Shown piece after piece: positions 8,906 through 21,399 of a stretch of DNA of 64,000 bases. Source of the stretch: a virus; IMG/VR virus record IMGVR_UViG_3300044739_000018, positions 99,482 through 163,481 of that record; one strand, written 5' to 3'. Position 1 is the stretch's first letter. The number at the start of each line of letters is the position of its first letter. Position numbers and translations under genes: made by a program. Below the pieces are notes generated by a model. That model had not been told where the DNA came from, made no database searches, and was given only the letters and a program-made list of their open reading frames with translations.

Positions 8906-8973
8906 ACGCCGGAGTCAAGGTGATCATCGGGTCTCCAAAACCCGTGGAGTGGGTTCGATTCCTACCCGGCGTG
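8906..8973 (+). tRNA. tRNA-Trp(CCA), reduced D-arm
   Basis: Acceptor ACGCCGG/CCGGCGT, anticodon stem CGGGT/ACCCG with loop CTCCAAA, T-arm GTGGG-TTCGATT-CCTAC. Only 15 nt join acceptor and anticodon stems, so the D-arm is a 3-bp stub. No CCA encoded. Confidence 0.85.
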
Positions 8974-9076
8974 CAAGGAGAATGTACCTCCGGCGTCATA
9001 CGGAGTGAGGATCTCCAGCAGGCGATAGTCCGGTACCGAACATAACCCGGACGCATAGGCATCGGAAATGAAGTAC

Positions 9077-9110
9077 CCCGGGAGGGGCGGTTACGGCTGT
9101 CCCTCCTGGG
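9077..9110 (+). terminator. Hairpin upstream of tRNA-Tyr
   Basis: CCCGGGAGGG pairs with CCCTCCTGGG across a 14-nt loop. No U-run follows, so it may be an RNA-processing hairpin instead of a terminator. Confidence 0.4.
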
Positions 9111-9114
9111 TCAT

Positions 9115-9197
9115 GGGTCGGTATGCAAACGGTGAAGCAAGCTGGCTGTAAACCAGTGACGTAAGAGACGTTGGGGGTTCGAATCCCTCCTGGCCCA
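9115..9197 (+). tRNA. tRNA-Tyr(GTA)
   Basis: Acceptor GGGTCGG/CTGGCCC, anticodon loop CTGTAAA, class II variable arm, T-arm GGGGG-TTCGAAT-CCCTC, discriminator A. Confidence 0.92.
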
Positions 9198-9322
9198 CAA
9201 ATCCGACGAGAACCTCGCTGTTGTGAGACAAACTGTTGTAGCAGGACCGTCCGTGAGCCGGAGGTTATAGGCCCGGACATAGAGGCGGTCTACGCGACCA
9301 GGAGGTCACTCATCGGAAGCAT

Positions 9323-9396
9323 GCTCCACTAACTCAATTGGCTAGAGTACCTGCCTCTTAAGCAGGGAGTTCAGGGTTCGAGTCCCTGGTGGAGTA
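9323..9396 (+). tRNA. tRNA-Lys(CTT)
   Basis: Acceptor GCTCCAC/GTGGAGT with a G-U first pair, anticodon arm CCTGC-CTCTTAA-GCAGG, T-arm CAGGG-TTCGAGT-CCCTG. Confidence 0.92.
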
Positions 9397-9399
9397 CGA

Positions 9400-9479
9400 G
9401 CAGGAAGTTCCGGTTCAATTCCGGAGGCCGTGGCGCAAGCCAGGGTTTGGTGTAACGGCAGCACACCTGCGTTGTTCAC
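9400..9479 (+). other. Candidate circularly permuted tRNA or pair of tRNA halves
   Basis: Between tRNA-Lys and tRNA-Asp the order is a 3' half (GCAGG, AAGT, T-arm TCCGG-TTCAATT-CCGGA, GGCCGTG) followed by a 5' half (CAGGGTT, TG, D-arm GTG-TAACGGCAG-CAC, A, CCTGC). Put together, GCAGG pairs with CCTGC as an anticodon stem and CAGGGTT with GGCCGTG as an acceptor stem (6 of 7 pairs), with canonical spacing throughout. The junction is a GCAA-type loop closed by TGGC/GCCA. The anticodon cannot be fixed. Two leftover halves of deleted tandem tRNAs is the alternative. Confidence 0.4.
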
Positions 9480-9553
9480 GGTCCTATAGATCAGATGGTT
9501 AGATCGCTACCCTGTCAAGGTAGAGGCCGCGGGTTCGAGTCCCGTTAGGACCG
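9480..9553 (+). tRNA. tRNA-Asp(GTC)
   Basis: Acceptor GGTCCTA/TAGGACC, anticodon arm CTACC-CTGTCAA-GGTAG, T-arm GCGGG-TTCGAGT-CCCGT, discriminator G. Confidence 0.93.
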
Positions 9554-9580
9554 CGCAAGTAATGGTGAAGCTGAACTGAA

Positions 9581-9632
9581 GCTCGCAGAGGGAACTGGAC
9601 TGTGAATCCAGGGCCACCAGTCTGGAACGAGC
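9581..9632 (+). other. tRNA-His-like element without a T-arm
   Basis: Outer stem GCTCG/CGAGC encloses a perfect anticodon arm CTGGA-CTGTGAA-TCCAG (GTG, His), but no TTCRA T-loop is present and the D region is only 9 nt. A full tRNA-His exists at 16940. It may be a remnant or a non-tRNA structured RNA. Confidence 0.35.
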
Positions 9633-9758
9633 CGAAGGAATGCCCAAGCCTTGCTCCGCCAGTCGTCGGCCGACTGACATGCCTGTGATGACATATTGGG
9701 CTTCATGCCCTCGGGACCACCAGCGATAGCCGATGGGCGTCCTAAGCTGATGTGCCGA

Positions 9759-9788
9759 AATACCCGCCCAACTTCTTCGGGAGTTGGG
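9759..9788 (+). terminator. Stem-loop with UUCG tetraloop
   Basis: CCCAACTTC and GGAGTTGGG form a 9-bp stem capped by TTCG, a very stable RNA hairpin, upstream of tRNA-Arg(ACG). No U-run, so processing or stabilisation is as likely as termination. Confidence 0.45.
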
Positions 9789-9814
9789 ATTGCGCCTTGA
9801 AGCGCAGCAGTCTA

Positions 9815-9889
9815 GTCTCGATGGTGAAATGGAGATCATTGCGGTCTACGAAACCGCCGTTAGAGGTTCGAATCCTCTTCGAGACGCCA
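9815..9889 (+). tRNA. tRNA-Arg(ACG)
   Basis: Acceptor GTCTCGA/TCGAGAC, anticodon arm GCGGT-CTACGAA-ACCGC, T-arm AGAGG-TTCGAAT-CCTCT, encoded CCA. A34 would need deamination to inosine by the host enzyme. Confidence 0.93.
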
Positions 9890-9895
9890 CCACAC

Positions 9896-9972
9896 GTCGA
9901 TGTAGCTCAGCCGGACAGAGCGCGGGCCTCCGAAGCCCGAGGCCAGAGGTTCGAACCCTCTCATCGACGCCA
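9896..9972 (+). tRNA. tRNA-Arg(CCG)
   Basis: Acceptor GTCGATG/CATCGAC, anticodon arm CGGGC-CTCCGAA-GCCCG, T-arm AGAGG-TTCGAAC-CCTCT, encoded CCA whose last A is also the first base of the next gene's ATG. Confidence 0.93.
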
Positions 9973-10361
9973 TGAAGATCCAAGGTTGGCTCGACTGGTT
10001 CCGCGAGCACGCTTTGCCCAGGGACACGTTCATCGAGAAGGTGACCGACCACGTGGGCAACGTCAGCCGGACCCGTGAAACCAAGATCAAGGTTCCTCGC
10101 CGTGCCCGCATGGACGAGATCGACAAGCTCCTGGCTGCGGCCAAGGGCGTGAAGCTCGATACCGAGATCATCGTTCCGGCCCATGCCGTGGCTGCGGAGG
10201 GGGCGACAACGACGATTCAGATGAATTGCGCTGACTGCAACGAACGTTGCAACGGAAGCGTGAAGACTTCCTGGCTCACCAGTCAGGCAGCAGGAGATCT
10301 AGTGAGGTGGCAGTGCGCCAAGTGCGGACTGGAGCAGTTTTGCAGTATCACGCCGCAGTAG
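9972..10361 (+). CDS. Zinc-ribbon protein nested between tRNAs
   Basis: 129 residues opening MKIQGWLDWFREHALPRDTF, with a basic middle and a C-terminal four-Cys ribbon (NCADCNERC, then CAKCGLEQFC). ATG overlaps the CCA of tRNA-Arg and the TAG stop (10359-10361) lies inside the acceptor of tRNA-Thr, so RNase P cleavage at the tRNA 5' end would remove the stop codon from the mRNA. Function unknown; nucleic-acid binding is likely. Confidence 0.75.
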   Translation: MKIQGWLDWFREHALPRDTFIEKVTDHVGNVSRTRETKIKVPRRARMDEIDKLLAAAKGVKLDTEIIVPAHAVAAEGATTTIQMNCADCNERCNGSVKTSWLTSQAAGDLVRWQCAKCGLEQFCSITPQ

Positions 10362-10424
10362 CGTCAACGGTTAGCGCGCGTCCTTGGTACGGACGAAGTT
10401 CAGGTTCGATTCCTGACTGTGGCT
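10352..10424 (+). tRNA. tRNA-Thr(GGT)
   Basis: Acceptor GCCGCAG/CTGTGGC, anticodon arm CGTCC-TTGGTAC-GGACG, T-arm TCAGG-TTCGATT-CCTGA. Overlaps the 3' end of the zinc-ribbon gene by 10 nt. Confidence 0.92.
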
Positions 10425-10521
10425 CTCGGAGTGTCGGGTACCAGTGATGGCCCGAAGCGACCTGCCCCCAAAGTACCGGTTGAGGGGACGGTTGTATCGA
10501 GCACTCCTATCCCGGGTGGTG

Positions 10522-10544
10522 GCGGGCTGGTAGCTCCAGCCCGC
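10522..10544 (+). terminator. Strong intergenic hairpin
   Basis: GCGGGCTGG pairs with CCAGCCCGC across a TAGCT loop in the spacer before tRNA-Arg(CCT). No clear U-run. Confidence 0.4.
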
Positions 10545-10557
10545 TGCTTCCCATCAC

Positions 10558-10629
10558 GTCTCTGTAGTTCAAAGGAAAGAACACGAGTTTCCTAAACTTG
10601 CGATGGGGGTTCGAGTCCTCCCAGAGACG
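10558..10629 (+). tRNA. tRNA-Arg(CCT)
   Basis: Acceptor GTCTCTG/CAGAGAC, anticodon arm CGAGT-TTCCTAA-ACTTG, T-arm GGGGG-TTCGAGT-CCTCC. Confidence 0.92.
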
Positions 10630-10658
10630 CTCAAGCCAGTGGATGCCATCATGCCGTT

Positions 10659-10740
10659 GGAAGGGAACATCCGGCTGCGTAGTAGCCGTCCTGAAAGACG
10701 TTCGTGCGGGCATCGGCGGGTTCGACCCCCGTAGCTTCCA
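10659..10740 (+). pseudogene. Degenerate tRNA-Ser-like element (TGA)
   Basis: A good T-arm GCGGG-TTCGACC-CCCGT and 5-bp acceptor GGAAG/CTTCC enclose a D-like stem GGCT/AGCC and a cramped anticodon hairpin CGTC-CTGAAA-GACG with a 6-nt loop. A normal tRNA-Ser(TGA) is at 12550, so this is probably a decaying copy. Confidence 0.4.
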
Positions 10741-10853
10741 CAACGAGGGAGCTTGCTGCCGGTGCAGCCCTGGCACATTGTATTTCGAGCGGATAGTGCC
10801 GATCTTTAGGTGAGCAGATCACCCCAGACCCTGGTGATTGGACTGGGGAATCT

Positions 10854-10946
10854 GTGCGCTATCGACACTACGAACTCAAGACGATCTTCATGGTTGCCTT
10901 TGTGGCCTTCGTAGTCATCAACCTCGTAATGGTGGTGGCTATATGA
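10854..10946 (+). CDS. 30-residue membrane micro-protein
   Basis: GTG start. A charged N-terminus (RYRHYELK) is followed by a hydrophobic helix IFMVAFVAFVVINLVMVVAI. The stop overlaps the ATG of the coiled-coil gene (ATGA). Confidence 0.55.
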   Translation: MRYRHYELKTIFMVAFVAFVVINLVMVVAI

Positions 10947-11353
10947 GCGGTGAAACCGAACAGCAGGTCAGTGGGTGGACAGTTGACACCCTGAATGAGC
11001 ACCTCCAGCGCATCATTGATGAGAAGCTGGCAGCTCAGGACGTGCTTATTACGGAGCGCGACCGCCGTTACGAACAACGCTTTGAGGCCCAAGAGAAGGC
11101 CATCCAGAAGGCGGAAACCGCGACCGAGAAGCGGTTCGAATCGGTCAACGAGTTCCGATCCGTGCTTTCGGACCAGACGAGGAGCTTCCTCCCTCGTGAA
11201 GAGTACAATCGTGCTCACACAGATCTGGCTAGCCGGTTGGATGAGGCGACCAAGAGTACCAACGAGAAGTTGGAACAGGCCGTGAAGACCCTTGAGAGTC
11301 GCATTGCCTCTCTCCAGCAGCAGCTCAACGCCGTCGAAGCGGTGGTGAAGTAA
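10943..11353 (+). CDS. Coiled-coil protein
   Basis: 136 residues from ATG 10943 (MSGETEQQVSGWTVDTLNEH), nearly all helical with heptad-like spacing and many Glu/Lys/Arg. Followed by two membrane proteins (11353, 11568) coupled by overlaps, so the three may form one membrane-linked complex. Lysis regulation or superinfection exclusion are possible roles, but nothing is specific. Confidence 0.7.
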   Translation: MSGETEQQVSGWTVDTLNEHLQRIIDEKLAAQDVLITERDRRYEQRFEAQEKAIQKAETATEKRFESVNEFRSVLSDQTRSFLPREEYNRAHTDLASRLDEATKSTNEKLEQAVKTLESRIASLQQQLNAVEAVVK

Positions 11354-11571
11354 TGCCCGTCGTGACCTTGGGGACGCTGGCCGAGAAGCTGATCGCTGCC
11401 CAGACTGGCATTGACCAGATCCAGGTAGAACTCAGGAAGGTCAACGAGCAAGCTCTTGACCGGCGAGTCTCCAAGCTGGAAGACACCGTAAAGTTCTTGA
11501 GCCGCACAGTCGCCGCCACGCTCATTTCGGCCATAGGGTCGGCCATCCTCGCGGTGGTGATGTCCCGATGA
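11353..11571 (+). CDS. Coiled coil plus C-terminal membrane helix
   Basis: 72 residues: an N-terminal helix, a heptad segment (QVELRKVNEQALDRRVSKLE) and a C-terminal transmembrane helix (LISAIGSAILAVVMSR), a layout shared with small holin-like and DUF7201-type phage proteins. ATG overlaps the preceding stop. Confidence 0.7.
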   Translation: MPVVTLGTLAEKLIAAQTGIDQIQVELRKVNEQALDRRVSKLEDTVKFLSRTVAATLISAIGSAILAVVMSR

Positions 11572-11912
11572 ACGAAAAAATGGATGAGACAAAGGCGGAC
11601 TCCCGCTTCAATGGAGTGCGTGTCCTCGTCACCGCCATCATTGTCGGCGTATTGGCCGTGGCGGTATTCGTGTCGGCCAGCCTCCTGACGAGAGTGCCGA
11701 AGAACGCTCAGGATCTCCGAGAGCGGTGCGTGTCATCAAACCTGGCGATCCAGCAGTTCAACACCAAGTTCTCGCAGTTGGTTGACTTGTTCGACCAGTC
11801 GCTGGCAAACCCGGACCCGAACAGGCCACCGCCGTCGCCGGAGGTCCTTGCTCTTTACGCCGAGTTCAAAAAGCCCGTCCCTCTCATCAAGTGCGAGGAC
11901 GACGGCCGCTAA
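11568..11912 (+). CDS. Single-pass membrane protein
   Basis: 114 residues with one transmembrane helix near residues 20-42 (VTAIIVGVLAVAVFVSASLL) and a soluble C-terminal domain with a Pro-rich turn. Coupled by ATGA to the coiled-coil membrane protein. Confidence 0.7.
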   Translation: MNEKMDETKADSRFNGVRVLVTAIIVGVLAVAVFVSASLLTRVPKNAQDLRERCVSSNLAIQQFNTKFSQLVDLFDQSLANPDPNRPPPSPEVLALYAEFKKPVPLIKCEDDGR

Positions 11913-12113
11913 GTTTTCGTGAACCCAAGCTCAGTAGGCAGAGTAGCCTTCAGGGGCCGGAGGTCGTGGGTGGGATTCCCACCGAGTCCATCATGAGTCG
12001 TCACTCGGGTGTAGCGCCGCCAGGCTGCCTACAGTGACGGTTCATCGTGGGGTCGTAGCTCAGTACCCAGAGCACCGTCTGGAACCTACGAAAGTGCGGG
12101 TAACACAACACCT

Positions 12114-12196
12114 GGAGAGATACCCAAGTGGTGAAGGGGACGGTTTGCTAAACCGTTAGGTCGAAAGGCGCGTGGGTTCGAACCCCACTCTCTCCG
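12114..12196 (+). tRNA. tRNA-Ser(GCT)
   Basis: Acceptor GGAGAGA/TCTCTCC, anticodon arm ACGGT-TTGCTAA-ACCGT, class II variable arm, T-arm GTGGG-TTCGAAC-CCCAC. Confidence 0.93.
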
Positions 12197-12274
12197 CGCT
12201 GGTGGGTATGCGGACTATAGGCGTGCATGCGCGCTTGGTCGTCCCGGCGCCGGGATGGCTGCCCACCGGATTCT

Positions 12275-12543
12275 TGAGATAGCCGGGTGACCGCGGCACG
12301 ACTTGATCGTGTCGAGGAAGGTCGGGACTCCACAGGACGAGGGAGCCAACGAGAGTTGGGCGGGCGTGAGCTTGCGGCTCTGCAACAGAGACGAGCCGGT
12401 TAAGTCCGGGTGAAACGGGCAACCCCCTGGAGCAACTTCATACAGAGGTCGCTGGTCCGGCGATAACCTCGGGTAGAAGGCTTAGATGGATGGTCACCGC
12501 GCTACATGCTGGCGTACAGAATCCCGCCTACAAGCTATCTCAG
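12275..12543 (+). ncRNA. rnpB: RNase P RNA (compact type A), phage-encoded
   Basis: About 269 nt matching the bacterial type A core in order. P1 is TGAGATAGC with 3' GCTATCTCA. P2 is GGTGACC with GGTCACC. P3 hairpin GCACGA/TCGTG follows. CR-I reads GAGGAAGGTCGGGACTCC, then CAACAGAGA, GGGTGAAACGGG, CTGGAGCAA, GGGTAG, TTAGATGGATGG and CR-V ACAGAATCCCGCCTACA. P4 (CGGGA with TCCCG) differs from the usual CCGGG/CCCGG on both sides, and P2 is also compensated, so the fold is under selection. It is far shorter than actinobacterial rnpB (about 400 nt), with peripheral helices reduced. It lies 7 nt before tRNA-Ser(TGA). RNase P removes tRNA 5' leaders; this RNA would need the host RnpA protein. Confidence 0.92.
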
Positions 12544-12549
12544 TATCTC

Positions 12550-12636
12550 GGAGCGATGGCAGAGTCTGGTTGATTGCACCTGCCTTGAAAGCAGACGTGG
12601 GGTAACTCACCGGGGGTTCGAATCCCTCTCGCTCCG
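12550..12636 (+). tRNA. tRNA-Ser(TGA)
   Basis: Acceptor GGAGCGA/TCGCTCC, anticodon loop CTTGAAA on stem CTGC/GCAG, class II variable arm, T-arm GGGGG-TTCGAAT-CCCTC. Confidence 0.93.
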
Positions 12637-12641
12637 CTCGC

Positions 12642-12653
12642 CAACGTTCGTTG
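12642..12653. promoter_or_regulatory. CAACGNNCGTTG palindrome with extended arms
   Basis: GCCAACG-TT-CGTTGGC, 7-base arms, in the non-coding spacer after tRNA-Ser(TGA). Confidence 0.5.
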
Positions 12654-12791
12654 GCAAACCCGTACTCATTCCTAGTACCGCTACGCAATGTTAGTCCTCG
12701 TAACTATCCGCCTGGCTGACCTGCGGTTTTAACGTCCTCCCACCTGTTCAAACGTGTGGCCGGTACTAGACATGAGTACATGACTCACCTC

Positions 12792-12875
12792 GGAAGGCAT
12801 CCGAATTGGAGAGGAACCCGCCTCGAAAGCGGGCACGGTGTAACAGCCTTGTGGGTTCGAGTCCCACGCCTTCCG
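12792..12875 (+). tRNA. tRNA-Ser(CGA)
   Basis: Acceptor GGAAGGC/GCCTTCC, anticodon arm CCCGC-CTCGAAA-GCGGG, class II variable arm, T-arm GTGGG-TTCGAGT-CCCAC. Confidence 0.93.
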
Positions 12876-12904
12876 CTTTGACAACCCGATGTGACAGAGC
12901 AGTC

Positions 12905-12976
12905 TGTATCGTAGCTCAGTTGGATAGAGCGCCGCCCACAAGGCGGAGGTCGCAGGTTCGAGTCCTGCCGAACACT
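12905..12976 (+). pseudogene. Degenerate tRNA (Val CAC-like)
   Basis: Good D-arm GCTC/GAGC and T-arm GCAGG-TTCGAGT-CCTGC. The acceptor TGTATCG/CGAACAC pairs only with a bulge, and the anticodon hairpin CCGCC-CACAA-GGCGG lacks two loop bases including U33. Probably inactive, or matured in an unusual way. Confidence 0.5.
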
Positions 12977-13011
12977 GGAACTCTCGAATGTGCGGGCGAG
13001 TCAATAACCTC

Positions 13012-13357
13012 GGGGCTGACAGGTTTCGACGGTGCAAGTGAAGCTAGGAGTGCGACCGGTCTTGGGCAGAGACCTAAAACGGCCTACCAAAAACAAACGA
13101 CAACGACATCGTTGCCGAGGCAGAGGCCGTCCTGGCTTCTGCTGCTCTCGCTACTGTCTGACAGTAGCTTGCGGGGAAGCCCATCCTTGAGATCCAAACG
13201 GGCATGTGACATGACTCTCAGGAAAGACTGAGTGGCGCTCCGTGAAATGCGGGCTGACAGCCGGAAAGACGGCACACTGGCCCGACAGTAAACGGGAATG
13301 GTCGTATCACAAGTAGTGAATCTGCAACGGACGTGGGTTCGAATCCCACCAGCTCCA
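13012..13357 (+). ncRNA. ssrA: tmRNA
   Basis: The tRNA-like domain is intact: 5' GGGGCTG with GACAGGTTTCGACGG, 3' GTGGG-TTCGAAT-CCCAC and CAGCTCC. The tag frame that ends in TGA reads toward its end NDNDIVAEAEAVLASAALATV, acidic then hydrophobic. This recalls the Bxz1 phage tag, which ends AALV, more than the usual host ALAA ending. The resume codon is not certain. tmRNA rescues ribosomes stalled on broken mRNA and tags the product for proteolysis. CCA is not encoded. Confidence 0.95.
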
Positions 13358-13582
13358 CGTGTATGCGCAACGAAAGGTTGGCTTAGAGGCAGCCATCCTA
13401 TAATGAGTGGGGTAACGGTCCATCTTGGCAGTAGCTGGGGTGGACCTCCGGGCAATACCGTTGGAGACAGCGAGTACGTCCGGGATCAGGTACGTGGGGA
13501 CTAGCCTGCCCATCGGTAACCGCTTTCTCCGTTCCTCGGAACCGCCCTTTGGCGTAATAGCACATCCTTGCGTGACACACCT

Positions 13583-13665
13583 GGAGAGGACCCGAACGGT
13601 CAGGAGCCTCGTTGGAAGCGAGGTACGGGTGCAAGCCCTAGTGGGTTCGACCCCCACCCTCTCCG
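13583..13665 (+). tRNA. tRNA-Ser(GGA)
   Basis: Acceptor GGAGAGG/CCTCTCC, anticodon arm CCTCG-TTGGAAG-CGAGG, class II variable arm, T-arm GTGGG-TTCGACC-CCCAC. Confidence 0.93.
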
Positions 13666-14028
13666 CTCCACATAGCGGGACGACAACTAATCGCGTTACA
13701 GGAAGTCGTTCTGCACGACCAAGGAGGTGAGTGAAGGTTATCAGCACCTACATCCGGTGGCATCAAGCTTCCGTTTGGAGCCTTCTCTCACACCGCAACC
13801 TGATCTGAAAGTGGTACGACCGGCCCGACAAGAGGCTACCCTCCTCAGCGTCCCGCCTCCCTGGCTCGGTGCCCGCATGCGTGCGGGCTTACCTGCGGTG
13901 TGATTCCTCAGGTGAGAGTGGTCGTGAATCCACGTGATTTGACGGTAAGCCAACGCTCGTTGCAGTGAGAACGTGGCTTCGCAGGAACAAGATGTCGGAA
14001 TGCTGAACTGGCCGTGACGGTGCAGTCG
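13666..14028 (+). other. 363-nt spacer without a convincing gene
   Basis: Holds AAGGAGGTGA at 13721 followed by short GTG frames of 26 and 55 codons that I cannot support, a GCCCGCA/TGCGGGC hairpin (13872-13889) and a CAACGCTCGTTG palindrome at 13951. It could carry a structured RNA. Confidence 0.3.
13951..13962. promoter_or_regulatory. CAACGNNCGTTG palindrome
   Basis: CAACGCTCGTTG in the non-coding spacer before tRNA-Gln(TTG). Confidence 0.5.
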
Positions 14029-14099
14029 TTGGGATTCGTATATCGGTAGTACACCCGGCTTTGAACCGGGTGGAGTGGGTTCGACTCCCGCATCCCCCC
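14029..14099 (+). tRNA. tRNA-Gln(TTG), first copy, mismatched acceptor tip
   Basis: Anticodon arm CCCGG-CTTTGAA-CCGGG and T-arm GTGGG-TTCGACT-CCCGC are good. The acceptor TTGGGAT/ATCCCCC has U-C mismatches at pairs 1-72 and 2-71. A sound second Gln(TTG) is at 21848. Confidence 0.75.
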
Positions 14100-14148
14100 T
14101 TGAACGGAGACTGAAACACCTGATCCAAAGGTAACAGCGTTCCATCAT

Positions 14149-14222
14149 GCCCCCATCGTTTATGGGTAGGACATCAGCCTTTCAAGCTGATAGACAGGGT
14201 TCGAGTCCCTGTGGGGGTACCA
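14149..14222 (+). tRNA. tRNA-Glu(TTC)
   Basis: Acceptor GCCCCCA/TGGGGGT, anticodon arm TCAGC-CTTTCAA-GCTGA, T-arm CAGGG-TTCGAGT-CCCTG, encoded CCA. The next tRNA starts 2 nt later. Confidence 0.93.
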
Positions 14223-14223
14223 A

Positions 14224-14294
14224 GGCGCATTAGTTTAGTGGGAAAACAACTGGTTCTCAGCCAGTCGTCAGGAGTTCGATCCTCCTATGCGCTA
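14224..14294 (+). tRNA. tRNA-Glu(CTC)
   Basis: Acceptor GGCGCAT/ATGCGCT, anticodon arm ACTGG-TTCTCAG-CCAGT, T-arm AGGAG-TTCGATC-CTCCT. Confidence 0.92.
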
Positions 14295-14351
14295 CTCATA
14301 GCAACGGCTCCGTGGCTCCTCCATCGGTACACCCGATGAGAGGGGGTGAAC

Positions 14352-14513
14352 GTGCCCAAGTATCACAGAGTAACGGGAGCCACCCGCTGCTATGTCTGCG
14401 GCCAGCGTCTGACGCTGACCGACTATGACGACGGCGATGAGGTCATCGCTAGTCACATAGACAAGACTCACATGAGAGTCATCAAGGCTCTCATTCGTTT
14501 CGCCCGCTCCTAG
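14352..14513 (+). CDS. C2H2 zinc-finger micro-protein
   Basis: GTG start after GAGGGGGTGAAC; 53 residues with CYVCG and, 22 residues later, HIDKTH, the spacing of a classical C2H2 finger, plus a basic C-terminus (KALIRFARS). Ends TAG. Likely DNA or RNA binding. A second C2H2 protein lies at 17347. Confidence 0.7.
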   Translation: MPKYHRVTGATRCYVCGQRLTLTDYDDGDEVIASHIDKTHMRVIKALIRFARS

Positions 14514-14572
14514 CTGGCGGCCCGGCGACACCTGCCGTAAGTGGTGTGACGTGGGGGAGAGACCTCATCCAT

Positions 14573-14649
14573 TGCCGGGTAGCTCAGATAGGCAGAGCAG
14601 CCGCCTGTTAAGCGGAAGCGCGTGGGTTCGATCCCCACCCTGGCAGCCA
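14573..14649 (+). tRNA. tRNA-Asn(GTT)
   Basis: Acceptor TGCCGGG/CCTGGCA, anticodon arm CCGC-CTGTTAA-GCGG, T-arm GTGGG-TTCGATC-CCCAC, encoded CCA. Confidence 0.93.
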
Positions 14650-14650
14650 T

Positions 14651-14725
14651 GGGACGATAGCCAAGTGGTAAGGCGACGGATTGCAACCCCGTCATTCGTC
14701 GGTTCGATTCCGACTCGTCCCTCCA
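14651..14725 (+). tRNA. tRNA-Cys(GCA)
   Basis: Acceptor GGGACGA/TCGTCCC, loop TTGCAAC with an A31-C39 mismatch, T-arm GTCGG-TTCGATT-CCGAC, encoded CCA. One base after tRNA-Asn. Confidence 0.9.
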
Positions 14726-14775
14726 TGTGATACAGAACCCGATCCTGACCTAGCAGGAGCAGTCGCCGCGGGGTC

Positions 14776-14827
14776 CCCCATGTATCCACAAACTGAGAGA
14801 TACTATTCAGAATGTGGATAGATGGGG
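14776..14827. repeat. 52-bp imperfect palindrome with two DnaA-box-like TATCCACA arms
   Basis: CCCCAT-G-TATCCACA-AA-CTGA, 10-nt loop, TCAG-AA-TGTGGATA-G-ATGGGG. The internal mismatches are placed symmetrically. The TATCCACA arms resemble DnaA boxes in inverted orientation. A second hairpin GTCCTCC-GGT-GGAGGAC overlaps its end (14827-14843). Confidence 0.55.
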
Positions 14828-14878
14828 TCCTCCGGTGGAGGACTGAAACTGGTGATGGTAGGGTAACTGTCTCAACTT

Positions 14879-14951
14879 GTGCGTGTAGCTCAACTGGCAG
14901 AGCACGACGTTGCCAACGTCGAGGTCGAGGGTTCGAACCCCTTCACGCACT
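14879..14951 (+). tRNA. tRNA-Gly(GCC)
   Basis: Acceptor GTGCGTG/CACGCAC, anticodon arm CGACG-TTGCCAA-CGTCG, T-arm GAGGG-TTCGAAC-CCCTT. Confidence 0.93.
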
Positions 14952-14956
14952 CGCAT

Positions 14957-15029
14957 GCGGGAGTGATGTCAACGGTTAGCATCTCTGCCTTCCAAGCAGA
15001 TCGTGCCGGTTCGAATCCGGTCTCCCGTT
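14957..15029 (+). tRNA. tRNA-Gly(TCC)
   Basis: Acceptor GCGGGAG/CTCCCGT, anticodon arm TCTGC-CTTCCAA-GCAGA, T-arm GCCGG-TTCGAAT-CCGGT. Confidence 0.93.
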
Positions 15030-15204
15030 CTTGACGCTGGCACCGGCGTGTCATAAAATGGGCGTTGGCGGAGAAGCCTACGGGGCGACTCCGAGTGTAA
15101 TCCGATCAGTCGAACCTCAGCCTCACGGTGAAGGCCCACTACTTACTCAAAGCCGGAACCTAAAGGCGGGCACCGTAATCGGGTTGCCGCGCAAAGAAAG
15201 TACC

Positions 15205-15230
15205 GAGAAGGGGCCGCAAGGCCCCTTCTC
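15205..15230 (+). terminator. Perfect 11-bp stem with GCAA tetraloop
   Basis: GAGAAGGGGCC-GCAA-GGCCCCTTCTC. Very stable, no U-run; it sits 5 nt before tRNA-Thr(TGT) and could be a processing or partial termination signal. Confidence 0.55.
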
Positions 15231-15234
15231 ACTA

Positions 15235-15309
15235 GCCTTCGTGATGTCAACGGCAGCATTCCTGTCTTGTAAACAGGTCGTGGCGGTTCGAATCCGTCCG
15301 GAGGCTCCA
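15235..15309 (+). tRNA. tRNA-Thr(TGT)
   Basis: Acceptor GCCTTCG/CGGAGGC, anticodon arm CCTGT-CTTGTAA-ACAGG, T-arm GGCGG-TTCGAAT-CCGTC, encoded CCA. Confidence 0.93.
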
Positions 15310-15446
15310 AGCAGTTGTGATGAAGCAGCATGTAAGCCGCCTGGCGGTGGAAACTCGCGGTCCGAATCTCAGGCTGGCAGAAATGCCAAGGGAACGGTGG
15401 CACTGGGAGCCGTTGGGGTGTTGGAACTTCTTGAATGACTGCTCAT

Positions 15447-15521
15447 GGTTCAGTAGCTCAGACTGGTTAGAGCGTCCGGTTGAAACCCGGGAGGTCGTCC
15501 GTTCGATCCGGACCTGAACCA
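15447..15521 (+). tRNA. tRNA-Phe(GAA)
   Basis: Acceptor GGTTCAG/CTGAACC, anticodon loop TTGAAAC, T-arm GTCCG-TTCGATC-CGGAC. Confidence 0.93.
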
Positions 15522-15536
15522 CGCCGATAGAGTCTC

Positions 15537-15770
15537 ATGGCTTCTATCACCATCACCATCCCCGATGCTCAGGTTCAACGAGTGTTGGACGCCTTCAGCC
15601 ATCGTTACGGCTACCAAGACCAGATTGACGGCGCACCAAACCCTCAAACGAAGGTCCAGTTCGCCAAGCAGCAGGTGGCACTCTGGATCAAGCGAGAGAC
15701 CGAGGACTACGAGCGGGCAATCCGAATCGCAGCAGCCGAGGCGGCTGCCATTGCACTCGACGCCACCTGA
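15537..15770 (+). CDS. Small phage protein, Ala-rich C-terminus
   Basis: 77 residues opening MASITITIPDAQVQRVLDAF. It resembles small phage proteins with a beta strand and two helices that follow tail genes, but I cannot name it. The C-terminus is Ala-rich helical. Confidence 0.65.
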   Translation: MASITITIPDAQVQRVLDAFSHRYGYQDQIDGAPNPQTKVQFAKQQVALWIKRETEDYERAIRIAAAEAAAIALDAT

Positions 15771-15784
15771 CGTAGAATCAGACC

Positions 15785-16135
15785 ATGTGTGGTGGAGGGA
15801 AGTGCAACCCCGATCCTCAGGTCGCCGCCAGCTTCCACCGCCTGGAGGAGCAGCGTCTGGCTGACATCGAGCGGTGGGGCCAGTGCGAGGAGATCAGCTA
15901 CCGCAACAAACGGTGCCACTACCCAATCGGTCACGACCGCGGGCACCATGCCGGTGACGGAATCACCTGGGCAACGGACGTTGAACATGAGGGCGGCCAG
16001 GCGGCAGAGCTGAAGAAGTTGTTCGAGACGTGCAAGACGATCATCCCCGGCATCGAGCTGCCCGCATGGGTGGAGTTCCAGGCCGACTTGTCTCACCTGG
16101 GCTTTCTGCTGGGGATCAAGAACGAGGACGCGTAA
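15785..16135 (+). CDS. Cys/His-rich hypothetical protein
   Basis: Opens MCGGGKCNPDP; 116 residues with CEEISYRNKRCHYPIGHDRGHH in the middle, a probable metal site. It contains an exact palindrome CAACGGACGTTG (15972-15983). Its TAA stop is at tRNA-Val positions 8-10, so transcript processing would separate the two. Confidence 0.7.
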   Translation: MCGGGKCNPDPQVAASFHRLEEQRLADIERWGQCEEISYRNKRCHYPIGHDRGHHAGDGITWATDVEHEGGQAAELKKLFETCKTIIPGIELPAWVEFQADLSHLGFLLGIKNEDA

Positions 16136-16197
16136 CTCAGAGGCAGAGTGCCAGGACGACACCCTGGTGGTCATTGGTTCGAATCCAATCGTGTCCA
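16126..16197 (+). tRNA. tRNA-Val(GAC) with C33
   Basis: Acceptor GGACGCG/CGTGTCC, anticodon arm CCAGG-ACGACAC-CCTGG, T-arm ATTGG-TTCGAAT-CCAAT. Position 33 is C in place of the near-universal U. Confidence 0.85.
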
Positions 16198-16415
16198 CGC
16201 AGCAAAATGCCAACTCAAGTTGAAGAGGCACCCATACCGAGAGCACATCGTCTTCATAAGACGCCCTGTGCGGATTAAGAGTTTACCAACGGTAGGCTGC
16301 TACATCATTGTGTCGATGTAGTTTGATCAGGACCCTCGGGGCAGGTAGCGCACTCGGCAGATAACCGGGGAGGCGGCCATGGTGGAACCTTGGAAACACG
16401 AGCCAAGCACTGCGG

Positions 16416-16485
16416 TGCCGTGTGATTTGGTAATCAAGGCTGGCTTATATCCAGCCCCTCTCGGGTTCGACTCCCGGCGCGGCTA
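16416..16485 (+). tRNA. tRNA-Ile(TAT), U-U at pair 1-72
   Basis: Acceptor TGCCGTG/CGCGGCT pairs except 1-72, anticodon arm GCTGG-CTTATAT-CCAGC, T-arm TCGGG-TTCGACT-CCCGG. Short D-arm TGAT/ATCA. Confidence 0.82.
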
Positions 16486-16564
16486 CGTCATGACCTACCT
16501 CCGAGAGTTCTCCACAGTGAGTGGGTAGTGTCGGCAGGAAAACTCGGCTGACTGTCGGCCACTT

Positions 16565-16639
16565 GCGTAACAAGCCAACTAGGTTGGAGGCGCTACCCTG
16601 ATAAGGTAGATATGCGAGGTTCGAATCCTCGGTTACGCA
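16565..16639 (+). tRNA. tRNA-Ile(GAT)
   Basis: Acceptor GCGTAAC/GTTACGC, anticodon arm CTACC-CTGATAA-GGTAG, T-arm CGAGG-TTCGAAT-CCTCG. Confidence 0.93.
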
Positions 16640-16680
16640 CTCAGAAATACGACTGATGCAGCAATAGAAACAGCGACCAG

Positions 16681-16745
16681 GAGGGGCCTGAAACCCCTTC
16701 GGCCTGCCGAGGTCAGCATGCGGCTCTTAACCGCCTCGCCCCTCT
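16681..16745 (+). other. tRNA-Lys-like element without a T-arm
   Basis: Outer stem GAGGGGC/GCCCCTC encloses an anticodon-like arm GCGG-CTCTTAA-CCGC (CTT), but the stretch before it holds overlapping hairpins (AGGGG-CCTGAAA-CCCCT and TTCGG-CCTG-CCGAG) and no T-loop follows. Confidence 0.35.
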
Positions 16746-16781
16746 CTGCTGAAACTGTTGAAGGCGTATCAACTGAAGCAA

Positions 16782-16854
16782 GCCTCTCTGGCGTAATGGA
16801 TAGCGTGTCGGCCTTTTAAGCCGGTCGGTCAGGGTTCGAATCCCTGGGGGGGCA
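16782..16854 (+). tRNA. tRNA-Lys(TTT)
   Basis: Acceptor GCCTCTC/GGGGGGC with two G-U pairs, anticodon arm CGGC-CTTTTAA-GCCG, T-arm CAGGG-TTCGAAT-CCCTG. Confidence 0.92.
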
Positions 16855-16862
16855 CTTTTCAT

Positions 16863-16938
16863 AGGCGGGTAGCTCAGAGGCCAGAGCAGCACCCTTACAA
16901 GGTGAAGTGCGAGGGTTCGACTCCCTCTCCGCCTACCA
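16863..16938 (+). tRNA. tRNA-Val(TAC)
   Basis: Acceptor AGGCGGG/TCCGCCT, anticodon arm CACC-CTTACAA-GGTG, T-arm GAGGG-TTCGACT-CCCTC, encoded CCA. Confidence 0.93.
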
Positions 16939-16939
16939 T

Positions 16940-17017
16940 GGTGGCCGTAGCTCAGTTGGTTAGAGCGCCAGGTTGTGATCCTGGATGTCGGGGGTTCGAG
17001 TCCCCTCGGTCACCCCA
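16940..17017 (+). tRNA. tRNA-His(GTG)
   Basis: Acceptor GTGGCCG/CGGTCAC with G at -1 opposite C73, the histidine identity element; anticodon arm CAGG-TTGTGAT-CCTG; encoded CCA. The final A is also the A of the next gene's ATG. Confidence 0.93.
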
Positions 17018-17169
17018 TGAGCACCAAAGTCAAAGAGATCACGTCGAATCCCAACGGGGACCGGCGACGGTGCCAGCTCTGCAATCCAACCCCTGACCGA
17101 ATTCCACTGGACAAGGTGTGGGCCTGGTCGCTAGAACATCCAGGAGAACCTTGGAGGCGAAGTGGCTGA
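17017..17169 (+). CDS. Small protein starting on a tRNA CCA end
   Basis: 50 residues opening MSTKVKEITSNPNGDRRRCQL; the ATG uses the terminal A of tRNA-His CCA. Has CQLC near residue 19. Overlaps the next GTG start. Confidence 0.6.
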   Translation: MSTKVKEITSNPNGDRRRCQLCNPTPDRIPLDKVWAWSLEHPGEPWRRSG

Positions 17170-17347
17170 GACCCTGACGGACGTTTCCCAGCACTACCGG
17201 GAGCGGGCAGAAGTCAGCATGTACTGGTGGGACGAGGACGACGAGGTTGCCATGGAGATCGTGCAGGACGCCATGAAGAACCTCATGTTCGCCTTCAAGC
17301 GGGCAGGAGTACGAGTACCGGCCCTGCACGTCACGGGCAGGAAGTAA
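17162..17347 (+). CDS. Small acidic helical protein
   Basis: GTG start, 61 residues opening MAETLTDVSQHYRERAEVSM, with WWDEDDEVAM and no motif. Stop-start overlap TAATG to the zinc-finger gene. Confidence 0.65.
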   Translation: MAETLTDVSQHYRERAEVSMYWWDEDDEVAMEIVQDAMKNLMFAFKRAGVRVPALHVTGRK

Positions 17348-17607
17348 TGGGCGACCCGTTCCGCTGTGGACGTTGCGACACGTGGTTCGACTACTACGAG
17401 GCCCTGGAGCGGCACATCGCGAAGGAGCATCCCAAGCCCTCGGACAAGTCGGTCCTCGCCACCATGCAGTATGAATTGAAGGAGGCGCTGCTTGAAATCC
17501 AGCGGCATCATGCCGACTTCAAGAAGGTCAGTCAGGCCCTCGACGACTACGAGGAGCATGGCGATGCGAAATTGCTTTACAAGACGGTCAGGAGCGTTGT
17601 AGGATGA
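17347..17607 (+). CDS. C2H2 zinc-finger protein with helical tail
   Basis: 86 residues. FRCGRCDTWFDYYEALERH then IAKEH fits CxxC-x12-HxxxxH, a classical finger, followed by a charged helix. Probable DNA- or RNA-binding protein encoded inside the tRNA locus. Confidence 0.75.
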   Translation: MGDPFRCGRCDTWFDYYEALERHIAKEHPKPSDKSVLATMQYELKEALLEIQRHHADFKKVSQALDDYEEHGDAKLLYKTVRSVVG

Positions 17608-17616
17608 TTCCCACGT

Positions 17617-17689
17617 TGCGGTGGGAGGGGACGGAGACCCTGTCAGGCTCATAACCTGGACTATGCGAGTTCGATTCTCGCCGCCGCTA
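17617..17689 (+). tRNA. tRNA-Met(CAT), U-U at pair 1-72
   Basis: Acceptor TGCGGTG/CGCCGCT pairs except 1-72, anticodon loop CTCATAA, T-arm GCGAG-TTCGATT-CTCGC. A mismatched 1-72 pair is the hallmark of initiator tRNA, but the three G-C pairs of the initiator anticodon stem are absent. Confidence 0.82.
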
Positions 17690-17713
17690 CTAAGCAGTAC
17701 AGCTTAACCTCTT

Positions 17714-17789
17714 GCCGGGAGGGTGAAACGGTTTCCACGGGGGCCTCATAAGCCTCAGACATGCGGTTCGACTCCGCTTCCCGCCACCA
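17714..17789 (+). tRNA. tRNA-Met/Ile2(CAT)
   Basis: Acceptor GCCGGGA/TCCCGCC with C-C at 2-71, anticodon arm GGGGC-CTCATAA-GCCTC, T-stem GCGG/CCGC, encoded CCA. It could be elongator Met or a lysidine-modified Ile tRNA. Confidence 0.82.
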
Positions 17790-17912
17790 TCTAAGGGACG
17801 CCTCCAAGGAGGTGAGTCCGATGTAGCAGCAACAACTAACATGCGAAGACACTCAACGGAGTGCCAGGAGTAACTCGGTAACACGGGCGCTGCTCCACAG
17901 GTCAATCGGGAG

Positions 17913-17931
17913 GCCAGGCCCCGCAAGTCGG
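17913..17931 (+). terminator. Hairpin before tRNA-Ala(GGC)
   Basis: GGCCCCG-CAAGT-CGGGGCC, 7-bp GC stem without a U-run. Confidence 0.4.
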
Positions 17932-17947
17932 GGCCGCTCCAATTCTT

Positions 17948-18023
17948 GGGGACGAAGCTCAGCAGGTTGAGCATCTGTCTGGCAGACAGAAGGTCGAGGG
18001 TTCGAATCCCTTCGTCTCCACCA
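17948..18023 (+). tRNA. tRNA-Ala(GGC)
   Basis: Acceptor GGGGACG/CGTCTCC, anticodon arm TCTGT-CTGGCAG-ACAGA, T-arm GAGGG-TTCGAAT-CCCTT, encoded CCA. Confidence 0.92.
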
Positions 18024-18025
18024 TC

Positions 18026-18265
18026 ATGGCATCAGCAACCGAAGGCAAAATCGACGTAGAGGTTACGCACGCATTCTGTATTGACCGTGCAGTCAAGACC
18101 TTGAAGTCGGTCTACAAGGCGGGTTTGAGTGCCGAGATCATCGAGCACACGCTGGCAACAGTGGACCGCTGGTTGAAGATTGCCGCAGAGATCCGAGCGG
18201 GTGACGAGCTTGCTAGCTACAAGTTCAACGCCCTGAAGAGGCAGTTGGAAGAGGAGAGTATGTAG
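18026..18265 (+). CDS. Helical hypothetical protein
   Basis: ATG two bases after tRNA-Ala CCA; 79 residues opening MASATEGKIDVEVTHAFC, otherwise all helical. No motif. Confidence 0.65.
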   Translation: MASATEGKIDVEVTHAFCIDRAVKTLKSVYKAGLSAEIIEHTLATVDRWLKIAAEIRAGDELASYKFNALKRQLEEESM

Positions 18266-18483
18266 TACGAACTCGGTGCGGACGTGATTCCGCCACTGCC
18301 TTCTGCCAACGCCTGGGCCGAACCGTGACGAACGGTGACTGCAAGGGAAGGTGCCGACATGGGAACTCCGGCCGGGTTACCTGTGAGCGGATAGAGGGGT
18401 CAGTGAAGAAATGACCCGATAGGGGAACGCTGTGCCGCGGAGGCGGCGGTCCCTTTCTTATCCATCCTTTATCTCCGCAACAC
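18266..18483 (+). other. 218-nt spacer rich in hairpins
   Basis: Contains GCGGA/TCCGC, ACCGT-GACGA-ACGGT, GGGTCA/TGACCC and GCCGC-GGAG-GCGGC hairpins in a row and no supported reading frame. A structured RNA is possible. Confidence 0.3.
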
Positions 18484-18556
18484 GGGCCTGTAGCTCCAAC
18501 GGTAGAGCAACTGCTTTGCAAGCAGAGGGTTGTCGGTTCGAATCCGACCTGGTCCA
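18484..18556 (+). tRNA. tRNA-Ala(TGC)
   Basis: Acceptor GGGCCTG/CTGGTCC with U-U at 6-67, anticodon loop TTTGCAA, T-arm GTCGG-TTCGAAT-CCGAC. Confidence 0.9.
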
Positions 18557-18561
18557 CGCAA

Positions 18562-18644
18562 GGGCGAGTGGCGTAATTGGCAGCCGCGCTGGTCTTAGGA
18601 ACCAGTGTCTATATGACGTGCGGGTTCGAGTCCCGCCTTGCCCA
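18562..18644 (+). tRNA. tRNA-Leu(TAG)
   Basis: Acceptor GGGCGAG/CTTGCCC, anticodon arm CTGGT-CTTAGGA-ACCAG, class II variable arm, T-arm GCGGG-TTCGAGT-CCCGC. Confidence 0.93.
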
Positions 18645-18645
18645 C

Positions 18646-18927
18646 GTGACGGCACGAGCAGGAACAGCAAGGAAGTCCACCGGAGCGGTAGCCAAGGGAG
18701 CCACTCGGCGGATATCAGTAGCTCGCACGGGAGGGTATCCGTGTGGCTTCTGTGGTGGCGGGAAACCGAACGGGCAGCGGTACTGTGCCCAGTGCATTGA
18801 CGAGTATGCCGACTTCATGGAAGTCACTGGCATCGACGAGTCACCGCACAGTGCCGACCTCTACAAGCTCTATCGCTTCATGTCTATGAAGGATGAAGTC
18901 GAGCGCATCAAAGAGAAGTACAGCTAG
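18646..18927 (+). CDS. Basic zinc-ribbon protein
   Basis: GTG immediately after tRNA-Leu; 93 residues with a basic N-terminus, then PCGFCGGGKPNGQRYCAQC, a CxxC-x10-CxxC ribbon, and a C-terminal helix (DEVERIKEKY). The TAG stop overlaps the first base of the next tRNA. A ribosome binding site is not visible. Confidence 0.65.
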   Translation: MTARAGTARKSTGAVAKGATRRISVARTGGYPCGFCGGGKPNGQRYCAQCIDEYADFMEVTGIDESPHSADLYKLYRFMSMKDEVERIKEKYS

Positions 18928-19004
18928 CTGACGTAGCCCAATCCGGCAGAGGCACATGGTTCAGAACCATGCCAGTGGAGGTTCGAGTCCTCTCGTCAGC
19001 ACCA
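18927..19004 (+). tRNA. tRNA with Leu anticodon (CAG) on a class I body
   Basis: Acceptor GCTGACG/CGTCAGC, anticodon arm CATGG-TTCAGAA-CCATG, five-base variable region, T-arm GGAGG-TTCGAGT-CCTCT, encoded CCA. Bacterial Leu tRNAs normally have long variable arms, so charging is uncertain. Confidence 0.85.
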
Positions 19005-19005
19005 A

Positions 19006-19081
19006 GCCTCTGTAGTGCTAATGGTTATCACGTCGGTTTCGTAAACCGAAGGACTCAGTTCGACTCTGAGCAGAGGCTCCA
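19006..19081 (+). tRNA. tRNA-Thr(CGT)
   Basis: Acceptor GCCTCTG/CAGAGGC, anticodon arm TCGGT-TTCGTAA-ACCGA, T-arm CTCAG-TTCGACT-CTGAG, encoded CCA. Confidence 0.93.
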
Positions 19082-19082
19082 C

Positions 19083-19165
19083 GCGAACGTGGCGGAATGG
19101 TATACGCGCTAGGTCGAGAGCCTAGTGCCCGCAAGGGATTGAGGGTTCGACTCCCTCCGTTCGCA
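19083..19165 (+). tRNA. tRNA-Leu(GAG) with C33
   Basis: Acceptor GCGAACG/CGTTCGC, anticodon arm CTAGG-TCGAGAG-CCTAG with C at position 33, class II variable arm, T-arm GAGGG-TTCGACT-CCCTC. Confidence 0.9.
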
Positions 19166-19202
19166 CAAATCGTTGACCCGCTCGCCCTCCAATGTTAGGG
19201 TC

Positions 19203-19218
19203 AGGTTCAACTGAACCT
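19203..19218. promoter_or_regulatory. Palindrome AGGTTCA-AC-TGAACCT
   Basis: Seven-base perfect arms 20 nt upstream of the likely GTG start of the zinc-ribbon gene. Candidate operator or translation-control hairpin. Confidence 0.4.
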
Positions 19219-19237
19219 CAAGACCATGGAGGCGGCG

Positions 19238-19513
19238 GTGGACGAGTACGTGGCGCTGTTCTGCCCGCACTGCGGCGTGCATCTCAACGAGGTTGAGACG
19301 GACGACGAGACCCTGGTTGCCCTCACTCCTGAGCCTGGGACCAGTGTGAAGTGCGGCCACTGTGGTATCGAGACCGACGACTGGAACCACATCGTCCAGT
19401 GCCGTCGCACGCTTGGCGCTGTGGGGGAGCTTCGGTTCCGTCAGGCGGCTGAGCGTCTTGCCGCTCTGGAGCAAGAGCTTGCCCTCGGCACGGAAGCTAC
19501 GCGGGCCTTCTAA
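19238..19513 (+). CDS. Zinc-ribbon protein whose stop is a tRNA anticodon loop
   Basis: GTG 19238 has GGAGG five bases upstream (ATG 19226 is an alternative). The product carries LFCPHCGVHLN and VKCGHCGIETD, a double CxxC ribbon, and a helical C-terminus. The last 33 nt are also tRNA-Arg(TCT), and the TAA stop forms the last bases of that tRNA's anticodon loop. Making mature tRNA would therefore destroy the mRNA, and a translating ribosome would block tRNA folding. Confidence 0.7.
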   Translation: MDEYVALFCPHCGVHLNEVETDDETLVALTPEPGTSVKCGHCGIETDDWNHIVQCRRTLGAVGELRFRQAAERLAALEQELALGTEATRAF

Positions 19514-19550
19514 GCCTGTGGACCGGGTTCGATTCCTGGCGGGGGTGCCA
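19481..19550 (+). tRNA. tRNA-Arg(TCT), embedded in a coding gene, reduced D-arm
   Basis: Acceptor GCCCTCG/CGGGGGT, anticodon arm CGGGC-CTTCTAA-GCCTG, T-arm CCGGG-TTCGATT-CCTGG, encoded CCA. Only 14 nt join acceptor and anticodon stems. Confidence 0.82.
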
Positions 19551-19552
19551 TC

Positions 19553-19699
19553 ATGATTGTCGCACTTCTGCTCGGCCTGTTCTGCCTCATTTTTGGCATC
19601 GGGCTTTACTTCGACAGCTACACTCACAACTGGTGCGACCTGCACCATTGGGATAGGTGTGAGCAACAATGCTCAGGACGAAGGTGGCGGGGCTGGTGA
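19553..19699 (+). CDS. 48-residue membrane protein
   Basis: ATG 19553; one N-terminal hydrophobic helix (IVALLLGLFCLIFGIGLY) then a Cys/His/Trp-rich tail. The 3' end overlaps the next gene in another frame. Confidence 0.5.
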   Translation: MIVALLLGLFCLIFGIGLYFDSYTHNWCDLHHWDRCEQQCSGRRWRGW

Positions 19700-19959
19700 C
19701 AGAAACAGAGAATGCAACCCACACGCTGTTTACCTGGATCACGCCGTCAGGCACTCAGGCTCGGATCAAGGTCGTCCTTGGTGCGGGCACACAGCGCGAG
19801 GTGTGGGACATGGCGGCGAACGTCTTGAAGTTCGAGATGGTGGACAACCTTCACATGGAGCGCACGAACGGAGATGCTCCGCCCGCCGACGACATCTTCG
19901 CCATGTGGATTCAGTTCGCTATCGCCCACTGCAAGCAGATGAGTGGCGTCGAAGACTAA
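19669..19959 (+). CDS. Hypothetical protein
   Basis: 96 residues opening MLRTKVAGLVTETENATHTL, mixed alpha/beta, no motif. Stop is immediately followed by tRNA-Pro(TGG). Confidence 0.65.
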   Translation: MLRTKVAGLVTETENATHTLFTWITPSGTQARIKVVLGAGTQREVWDMAANVLKFEMVDNLHMERTNGDAPPADDIFAMWIQFAIAHCKQMSGVED

Positions 19960-20030
19960 CGGGTCGAGTTGTTACGGAAGCATCCGGGGTTTGGAACCCC
20001 GTGGCCGGGGTTCGACTCCCTGCGACCCGA
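19960..20030 (+). tRNA. tRNA-Pro(TGG)
   Basis: Acceptor CGGGTCG/CGACCCG, anticodon arm CGGGG-TTTGGAA-CCCCG, T-arm CGGGG-TTCGACT-CCCTG. Confidence 0.93.
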
Positions 20031-20043
20031 CGTAGTAATGCAA

Positions 20044-20874: not shown

Positions 20875-20934
20875 CGCAACACTCCTGTCTGTCGCATTCT
20901 CGATTGGATGTTCCAATCAGACAAGGAGGATACA

Positions 20935-21396: not shown

Positions 21397-21399
21397 CTT

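Follow-up and report, generated by a model that had tools for sequence, protein, structure and literature searches.

The window analysed here, a stretch of 64,000 nucleotides comprising bases 99,482-163,481 of a 163,481-base IMG/VR virus record, carries a gene for a compact class A RNase P RNA (rnpB) within a long same-strand array of tRNA genes that also includes a tmRNA (Table 1). ARAGORN places 38 tRNAs and the tmRNA on the plus strand between 9115 and 22353, and three further tRNAs detected with Rfam bring the number to about 41; the initial annotation, made from the sequence alone, had counted 42 and put a tRNA 7 nt away, which is the distance we find between the end of P1 and position 12550. 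On the other side, 77 nt separate tRNA-Ser(GCT) from rnpB, and this spacer (12198-12274) is predicted, on folding energy alone, to form a strong long hairpin of -41 kcal/mol. At the ends assigned by ARAGORN, CCA is lacking in 26 of the 38 window tRNAs and present in the other 12. Two tRNAs with the anticodon CTA (529-602 and 1167-1236, minus strand) lie outside the main array, and TAG is the stop codon of three of the 23 window ORFs checked. The predicted tag of the window tmRNA ends in ALATV (ARAGORN), the usual ending being ALAA; an SmpB gene was not found in the 163,481-base record. As this record is linear and possibly incomplete, the phage could still have an SmpB of its own.

We take the record to be that of a phage because of its IMG/VR classification together with two PHROGs matches in the window, one to a head protein (phrog_240, 1.8e-19) and a weak one to a terminase (phrog_5909, 6.1e-5). 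The PHROGs scan matched nine of 18 window proteins, mostly to families of unknown function. Pfam Terminase_6N has no match in the window record; across 35 records the Pfam terminase search gave three matches and is too insensitive to decide phage identity. Close relatives by the terminase-like protein were not found among the viral contigs searched, a collection that may not include the nearest records.

Table 1. Features of the rnpB locus in window coordinates; the last three rows give YrlA matches at other loci
Feature	Position	Strand	Basis or remark
Same-strand array, about 41 tRNAs, rnpB and tmRNA	8906..22353	+	ARAGORN and Rfam
tRNA-Ser(GCT), upstream neighbour	12114..12197	+	ARAGORN
rnpB, class A, compact	12275..12546	+	RF00010, 120.2 bits, E 3.3e-36, model 1-367
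P1 5' arm	12275..12283	+	pairs with 12534-12542, 9 bp
P2 5' arm	12286..12292	+	pairs with 12492-12498, 7 bp
P3 hairpin	12295..12313	+	7 bp; RF00010 alignment and pairing check
CR-I: J3/4, P4 5' strand with bulged U12322, P5 5' strand	12314..12331	+	identical string in Acidimicrobiia
P6 5' strand GGAC	12335..12338	+	pairs with L17 GTCC 12455-12458, type A pseudoknot
Compact S-domain core: J11/12, mini-P12 (12396-12399 with 12406-12409), J12/13; without P13/P14	12385..12417	+	
GGGTAG	12471..12476	+	aligned to RF00010 model
CR-V with P4 3' strand	12516..12528	+	pairing check
P1 3' arm	12534..12542	+	pairs with 12275-12283
tRNA-Ser(TGA), downstream neighbour, 7 nt past P1	12550..12637	+	ARAGORN
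tmRNA, array member	13012..13358	+	ARAGORN; RF00023, 89 bits
YrlA matches, L179	10205-10350, 14393-14540, 16741-16890		
YrlA match, L174	12500-12569		
YrlA match, L191	15474-15544		

Two further kinds of structured RNA may accompany such arrays. Directly after the tmRNA, positions 13372-13424 and 13551-13566 (plus strand) match helices 43/44 of 23S rRNA, the GTPase-associated centre; the match (LSU_rRNA_archaea, 27.5 bits, E 8.3e-5) is below the gathering score of 50 and falls into two parts, with some 125 inserted nucleotides between them. This two-part arrangement is shared by the window, L163, L374 and the pair L373/L375, which look alike; in L163, another rnpB phage, the match is to LSU_rRNA_bacteria (16.7 bits, E 0.0062), and tRNAs accompany four of the five loci, L374 being the exception. 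A free-standing RNA that imitates the factor-binding site of the ribosome would, if true, be a surprising thing for a phage to carry. Matches to YrlA, a Y RNA-like RNA, also occur in phage tRNA arrays, with scores under the gathering threshold (best E 1.4e-7), one of them 8 nt from rnpB.

Identity and fold of the RNA

In the Rfam covariance search of the window, the RF00010 match spans the entire model and lies above the gathering score of 100, which bears out the earlier assignment to bacterial type A RNase P RNA, and no second match to RF00010 occurs elsewhere in the 163,481-base record, which was scanned as a whole. The signature blocks that had been listed are present, including CR-I, CR-V and GGGTAG. 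The strong reduction noted at the outset (about 269 nt) is also evident, as the gene measures 272 nt by the model and is thus 72-91 nt shorter than six chromosomal genes of the Acidimicrobiia kind (344-363 nt). Membership in the family is clear; what is new is the carrier and the compact form.

The helices P1, P2, P3, P5 and P15 and the 5-bp core of P4 are fully paired as written, in line with the perfect pairing first reported for P1, P2 and P4. In P4, GG at 12320-12321 faces CC at 12527-12528, with U12322 between, as read from the sequence. The RF00010 alignment further shows J18/2, CR-V and GGGUAG intact, the last of these (in L15, GGU-type) presumably being the site for the RCCA 3' end of tRNA; it also contains several non-standard pairs, chiefly in P7-P11. 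A folding check, which had been proposed along with the covariance-model search, agreed in part: the unconstrained fold is better than that of shuffled sequences (z -2.45; 3 of 200 as good), yet it forms neither P2 nor the complete canonical core.

The pseudoknot between P6 and L17 could be followed across phage RNAs. The complement of the P6 tetramer is found in the RNA's own L17 in 24 of 26 cases, as against 55 of 570 mismatched pairings, in which the L17 was taken from RNAs with a different tetramer. The 26 are those RNAs, some of them close relatives, in which the script placed both strands, 12 others being left out, and eleven different P6 tetramers occur among the RNAs tested. With a wider, partly misplaced search region the counts were 27 of 33 for own and 217 of 932 for mismatched pairings. 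This pattern is as would be expected from a maintained type A fold.

The shortening of the window RNA is concentrated in the S-domain, where P13, P14 and the tip of P12 are absent: 43 model positions are deleted between J12/13 and P11, in addition to most of P12. P18 is missing as well (24 model positions), as it is in all six aligned chromosomal genes of the Acidimicrobiia kind, which keep P12-P14. The remaining mini-P12 is paired in 40 of 40 cells in ten distinct phage rows, and two of its four pairs have changed on both sides. None of 500 shuffles reached the number of paired cells, that of doubly changed cells or the covariation score, while the count of two pairs changed on both sides was reached by 34 and the number of pair types by 155 of the 500.

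Searching IMG/VR with a pattern for the short S-domain that is independent of CR-I gave 20 records, 19 of them new to the set, and the phage compact S-domain was found to accompany several different catalytic domains. A single origin of all compact phage RNAs received p 0.301 in the AU test, an analysis from which four long rows had been removed. The notion that this S-domain is exclusive to phages is ruled out by its occurrence in bacteria: of 396 sampled genomes in the phylum to which an Acidimicrobiales genome (G035) belongs, 11 have it. These bacterial RNAs share with the window RNA an S-domain with J11/12 GACGA, a short P12 and J12/13 GGTGAAACG, but differ from it in having a very different catalytic domain and in their surroundings, with 0-2 tRNAs per stretch examined in ten of the 11 genomes; their compact rnpB looks chromosomal. 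RF00010 matches the compact RNA in ten of the 11, each time with a score under the gathering threshold, and Rfam detects no better P RNA there; one genome (G327) has an additional weak partial match. As a side observation, these 11 genomes (loci L351-L361) thus hold a very aberrant P RNA. Since the full set of P12, P13 and P14 is also lacking from the chromosomal P RNAs of these 11 of 396 genomes, we do not take this part of the S-domain as defining class A.

Recurrence in viral records and descent

The window rnpB is not unique, as dozens of other viral sequences also carry the gene. A degenerate CR-I scan of IMG/VR returned at least 120 stretches, and among those listed our script flagged 41 other loci; scans for CR-I followed by CR-V at a spacing of 165-288 yielded 26 rows. 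The first set combined 26 of the 41 flagged loci with eight from the CR-I-to-CR-V scans, and the remaining 15 were added later; of these, 11 match RF00010 (ten over the cut-off) and four do not. Altogether, RF00010 matches (E <= 0.001) were obtained in 64 of the 68 IMG/VR records tested, 57 of them above the gathering score. As seven of the 64 fall below this cut-off, truncated or degenerating genes may be among them.

Although tRNA context played no part in the selection of records, same-strand tRNAs are present in 50 of the 62 matching neighbourhoods examined, a number that excludes two matching records (G017 and G024), and absent in 12. By set, they occur in 29 of 32 neighbourhoods of the first, four of 11 of the later (L011, L037, L069 and L117; none in the other seven) and 17 of 19 of the compact records, the last representing 14 distinct stretches as cut. 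At the 29 array loci, which hold 24 distinct rnpB sequences owing to five identical pairs, the distance to a tRNA is at most 200 nt in 27; it is at most 10 nt on one side or both in 21, of which nine have such a close tRNA on either side. The length of rnpB there ranges from 200 to 365 nt, and the most reduced phage copies (G002, G007, G014 and G027) measure 200-260 nt. Where rnpB occurs without tRNAs, the record may be bacterial or stem from the edge of a prophage: in the tree, G012 falls among Acidimicrobiia rnpB, yet G013, one of the three records with a Pfam terminase match, likewise has no nearby tRNA. The other IMG/VR genes thus resemble that of the window in their same-strand tRNAs and in the lack of a detectable RnpA (none in the 68 records tested, at E <= 0.1), whereas their catalytic domains are of other descent and many keep P13/P14.

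Among 50,697 records of named phages, nine rnpB queries and a 2-kb stretch of the window identified no convincing isolate. The matches obtained are of two kinds: contigs that seem to be bacterial although classed as phage, and unannotated faecal scaffolds, among which L196 has one tRNA and L197 none. The rnpB region of MW495066.1 (Microcystis phage MaAM05) looks bacterial, with glyS, fabI, engB and fliM annotated nearby, and so do those of the phage-collection records CAKLQF020000022.1 and AGRM01000002.1.

The bases of P2 and P4 had been described as departing from the bacterial norm on both strands and had been read as covariation that speaks against recent copying. They do differ from the general consensus; however, they are usual in Acidimicrobiia, and the argument is therefore rejected. 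At least 120 bacterial contigs contain the exact window CR-I with NNAG directly after it, and the window CR-V is common to the four chromosomal sequences aligned. Among the 120 CR-I contigs listed, 111 belong to Actinomycetota (77 labelled Acidimicrobiia, 26 Actinomycetes), two to Acidobacteriota and one to Methylomirabilota, with six lacking a phylum. Being normal in Acidimicrobiia, the P2/P4 bases suggest that the gene descends from a host of this kind, and a chromosomal source in or near this class would be our best guess; the host of the phage is probably a member of it too, as judged from sequence.

In the tree of catalytic domains the window groups with Acidimicrobiia (94/93, and 91/91 after four long rows were dropped), a placement whose support of 91-94/91-93 is below the starred level; 20 rows of the first tree had not been cut by the script. 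The window branch is long (0.56-0.64 versus about 0.01-0.22 for chromosomal genes), and this length, together with the loss of the P12 tip, P13 and P14, is better evidence against a recent copy. The window gene is thus like chromosomal rnpB of Acidimicrobiia in the letters of CR-I and CR-V, in P1-P5, the P6/P17 pseudoknot, GGGUAG and the missing P18, and unlike it in length, in its short P12 without P13/P14 and in its place in a phage tRNA array, the chromosomal gene standing alone: among the CR-I matches listed, only one of 120 chromosomal loci has any tRNA within at most 8 kb.

Proposed function and its alternatives

The core of the family is intact in the window gene, the gene lies in a tRNA array, it recurs in phage records, and pairs are maintained across copies. 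Probably, then, it encodes a working phage P RNA with a shortened form and a catalytic domain derived from Acidimicrobiia, which would act on the RNAs of the array with the help of the host RnpA. We favour this reading because of the match to the full model, the pairing of P1-P5 and P15, the compensation in P6/P17 and mini-P12, the array setting, and the fact that no RnpA was found. The latter (PF00825) was sought in the 163,481-base record, which, being linear and possibly a fragment, leaves room for an RnpA of the phage's own; the protein partner is presumed to be supplied by the host.

According to this proposal, a phage would have taken rnpB, or at least its catalytic domain, from an actinobacterial chromosome, probably of Acidimicrobiia; the gene would have been placed in the phage tRNA array and would then have lost the P12 tip, P13 and P14. 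It would be transcribed together with the array, its 3' end being freed by an RNase P cut at the tRNA-Ser 7 nt downstream, and the phage P RNA, bound to host RnpA, would form a holoenzyme that processes the phage tRNAs and the tmRNA at their 5' ends. The gain would be a tRNA-processing capacity of the phage's own for periods in which tens of tRNAs have to be produced together or the host no longer makes RNA.

Rather than adding plain capacity, the compact S-domain could make for a phage-specific enzyme with altered substrate preference, for phage pre-tRNAs or in escape from a host defence. One S-domain form combined with diverse catalytic domains in many phages would fit this, as would the majority of window tRNAs that lack a CCA end; on the other hand, 12 of the 38 do end in CCA, other phages keep P13/P14, and the compact S-domain of the 11 bacterial genomes belongs in ten of them to the best P RNA found by Rfam and so can serve in a general enzyme. 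We regard this version as somewhat unlikely, while altered tRNA processing by the phage P RNA, taken more broadly, is a fair hypothesis on sequence grounds. An RNA that acts as a decoy or dominant inhibitor, taking up host RnpA or pre-tRNAs and thereby lowering host tRNA maturation, is an unlikely explanation for the window gene: the four most reduced phage copies could bind without cleaving, and RnpA was found neither in the window record nor in the 68 tested, but the window RNA keeps the catalytic core (J3/4, P4 with its bulged U, CR-V, J18/2 and GGGUAG), and the phage's own tRNAs, about 41 in number, need processing.

It is slightly less probable still that rnpB is a functionless passenger acquired along with host tRNA genes. 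Clusters of tRNA genes gain and lose members readily, and the nearest chromosomal genes among those compared are those of Acidimicrobiia, as a passenger would have it; yet co-transfer with tRNAs is not expected given how seldom chromosomal rnpB lies near them, and the compensatory changes in P6 and P12 across phages and the recurrence in many arrays speak for maintenance. Some of the records collected may be assembly chimeras or mis-binned bacterial DNA, as suggested by the 12 neighbourhoods without a same-strand tRNA, by the grouping of G012 and by the bacterial stretches inside named phage records. For the window itself this origin is highly improbable, since its copy is distinctly shorter than the chromosomal ones and lies between tRNAs and tmRNA, with the head and terminase matches in the same window and the layout repeated in many records.

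The initial annotation knew of no described phage carrying rnpB, and among the open-access papers listed in our searches, which mostly do not extend to subscription papers, none likewise describes an RNase P RNA carried by a phage; exact phrases such as "phage-encoded RNase P" gave no match in this literature. The huge phages described in PMC7162821 resemble the window phage in carrying tRNAs and tmRNA; neither RNase P (also under the name ribonuclease P) nor rnpB is mentioned in the main text of that paper, and the passage of its methods on phage annotation covers tRNA and tmRNA only. Annotation limited to these two classes, as in that passage, can miss other structured RNAs of the same arrays.

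The phage copies provide natural reduced P RNAs of 200-290 nt for ribozyme work. As a tentative generalization, tRNA-rich or huge phages might run their own tRNA maturation by means of a recurrent and selected rnpB, repeatedly derived from hosts, compact, dependent on host RnpA, preferring phage precursors and freeing its own 3' end; lying beside tmRNA and an RNA resembling the 23S GTPase centre, it would form part of a takeover of translation at the level of RNA. With rnpB recurring in the tRNA arrays of phages, the idea that phages control how tRNAs mature becomes open to testing, and this step may belong among the functions that phages supply themselves.
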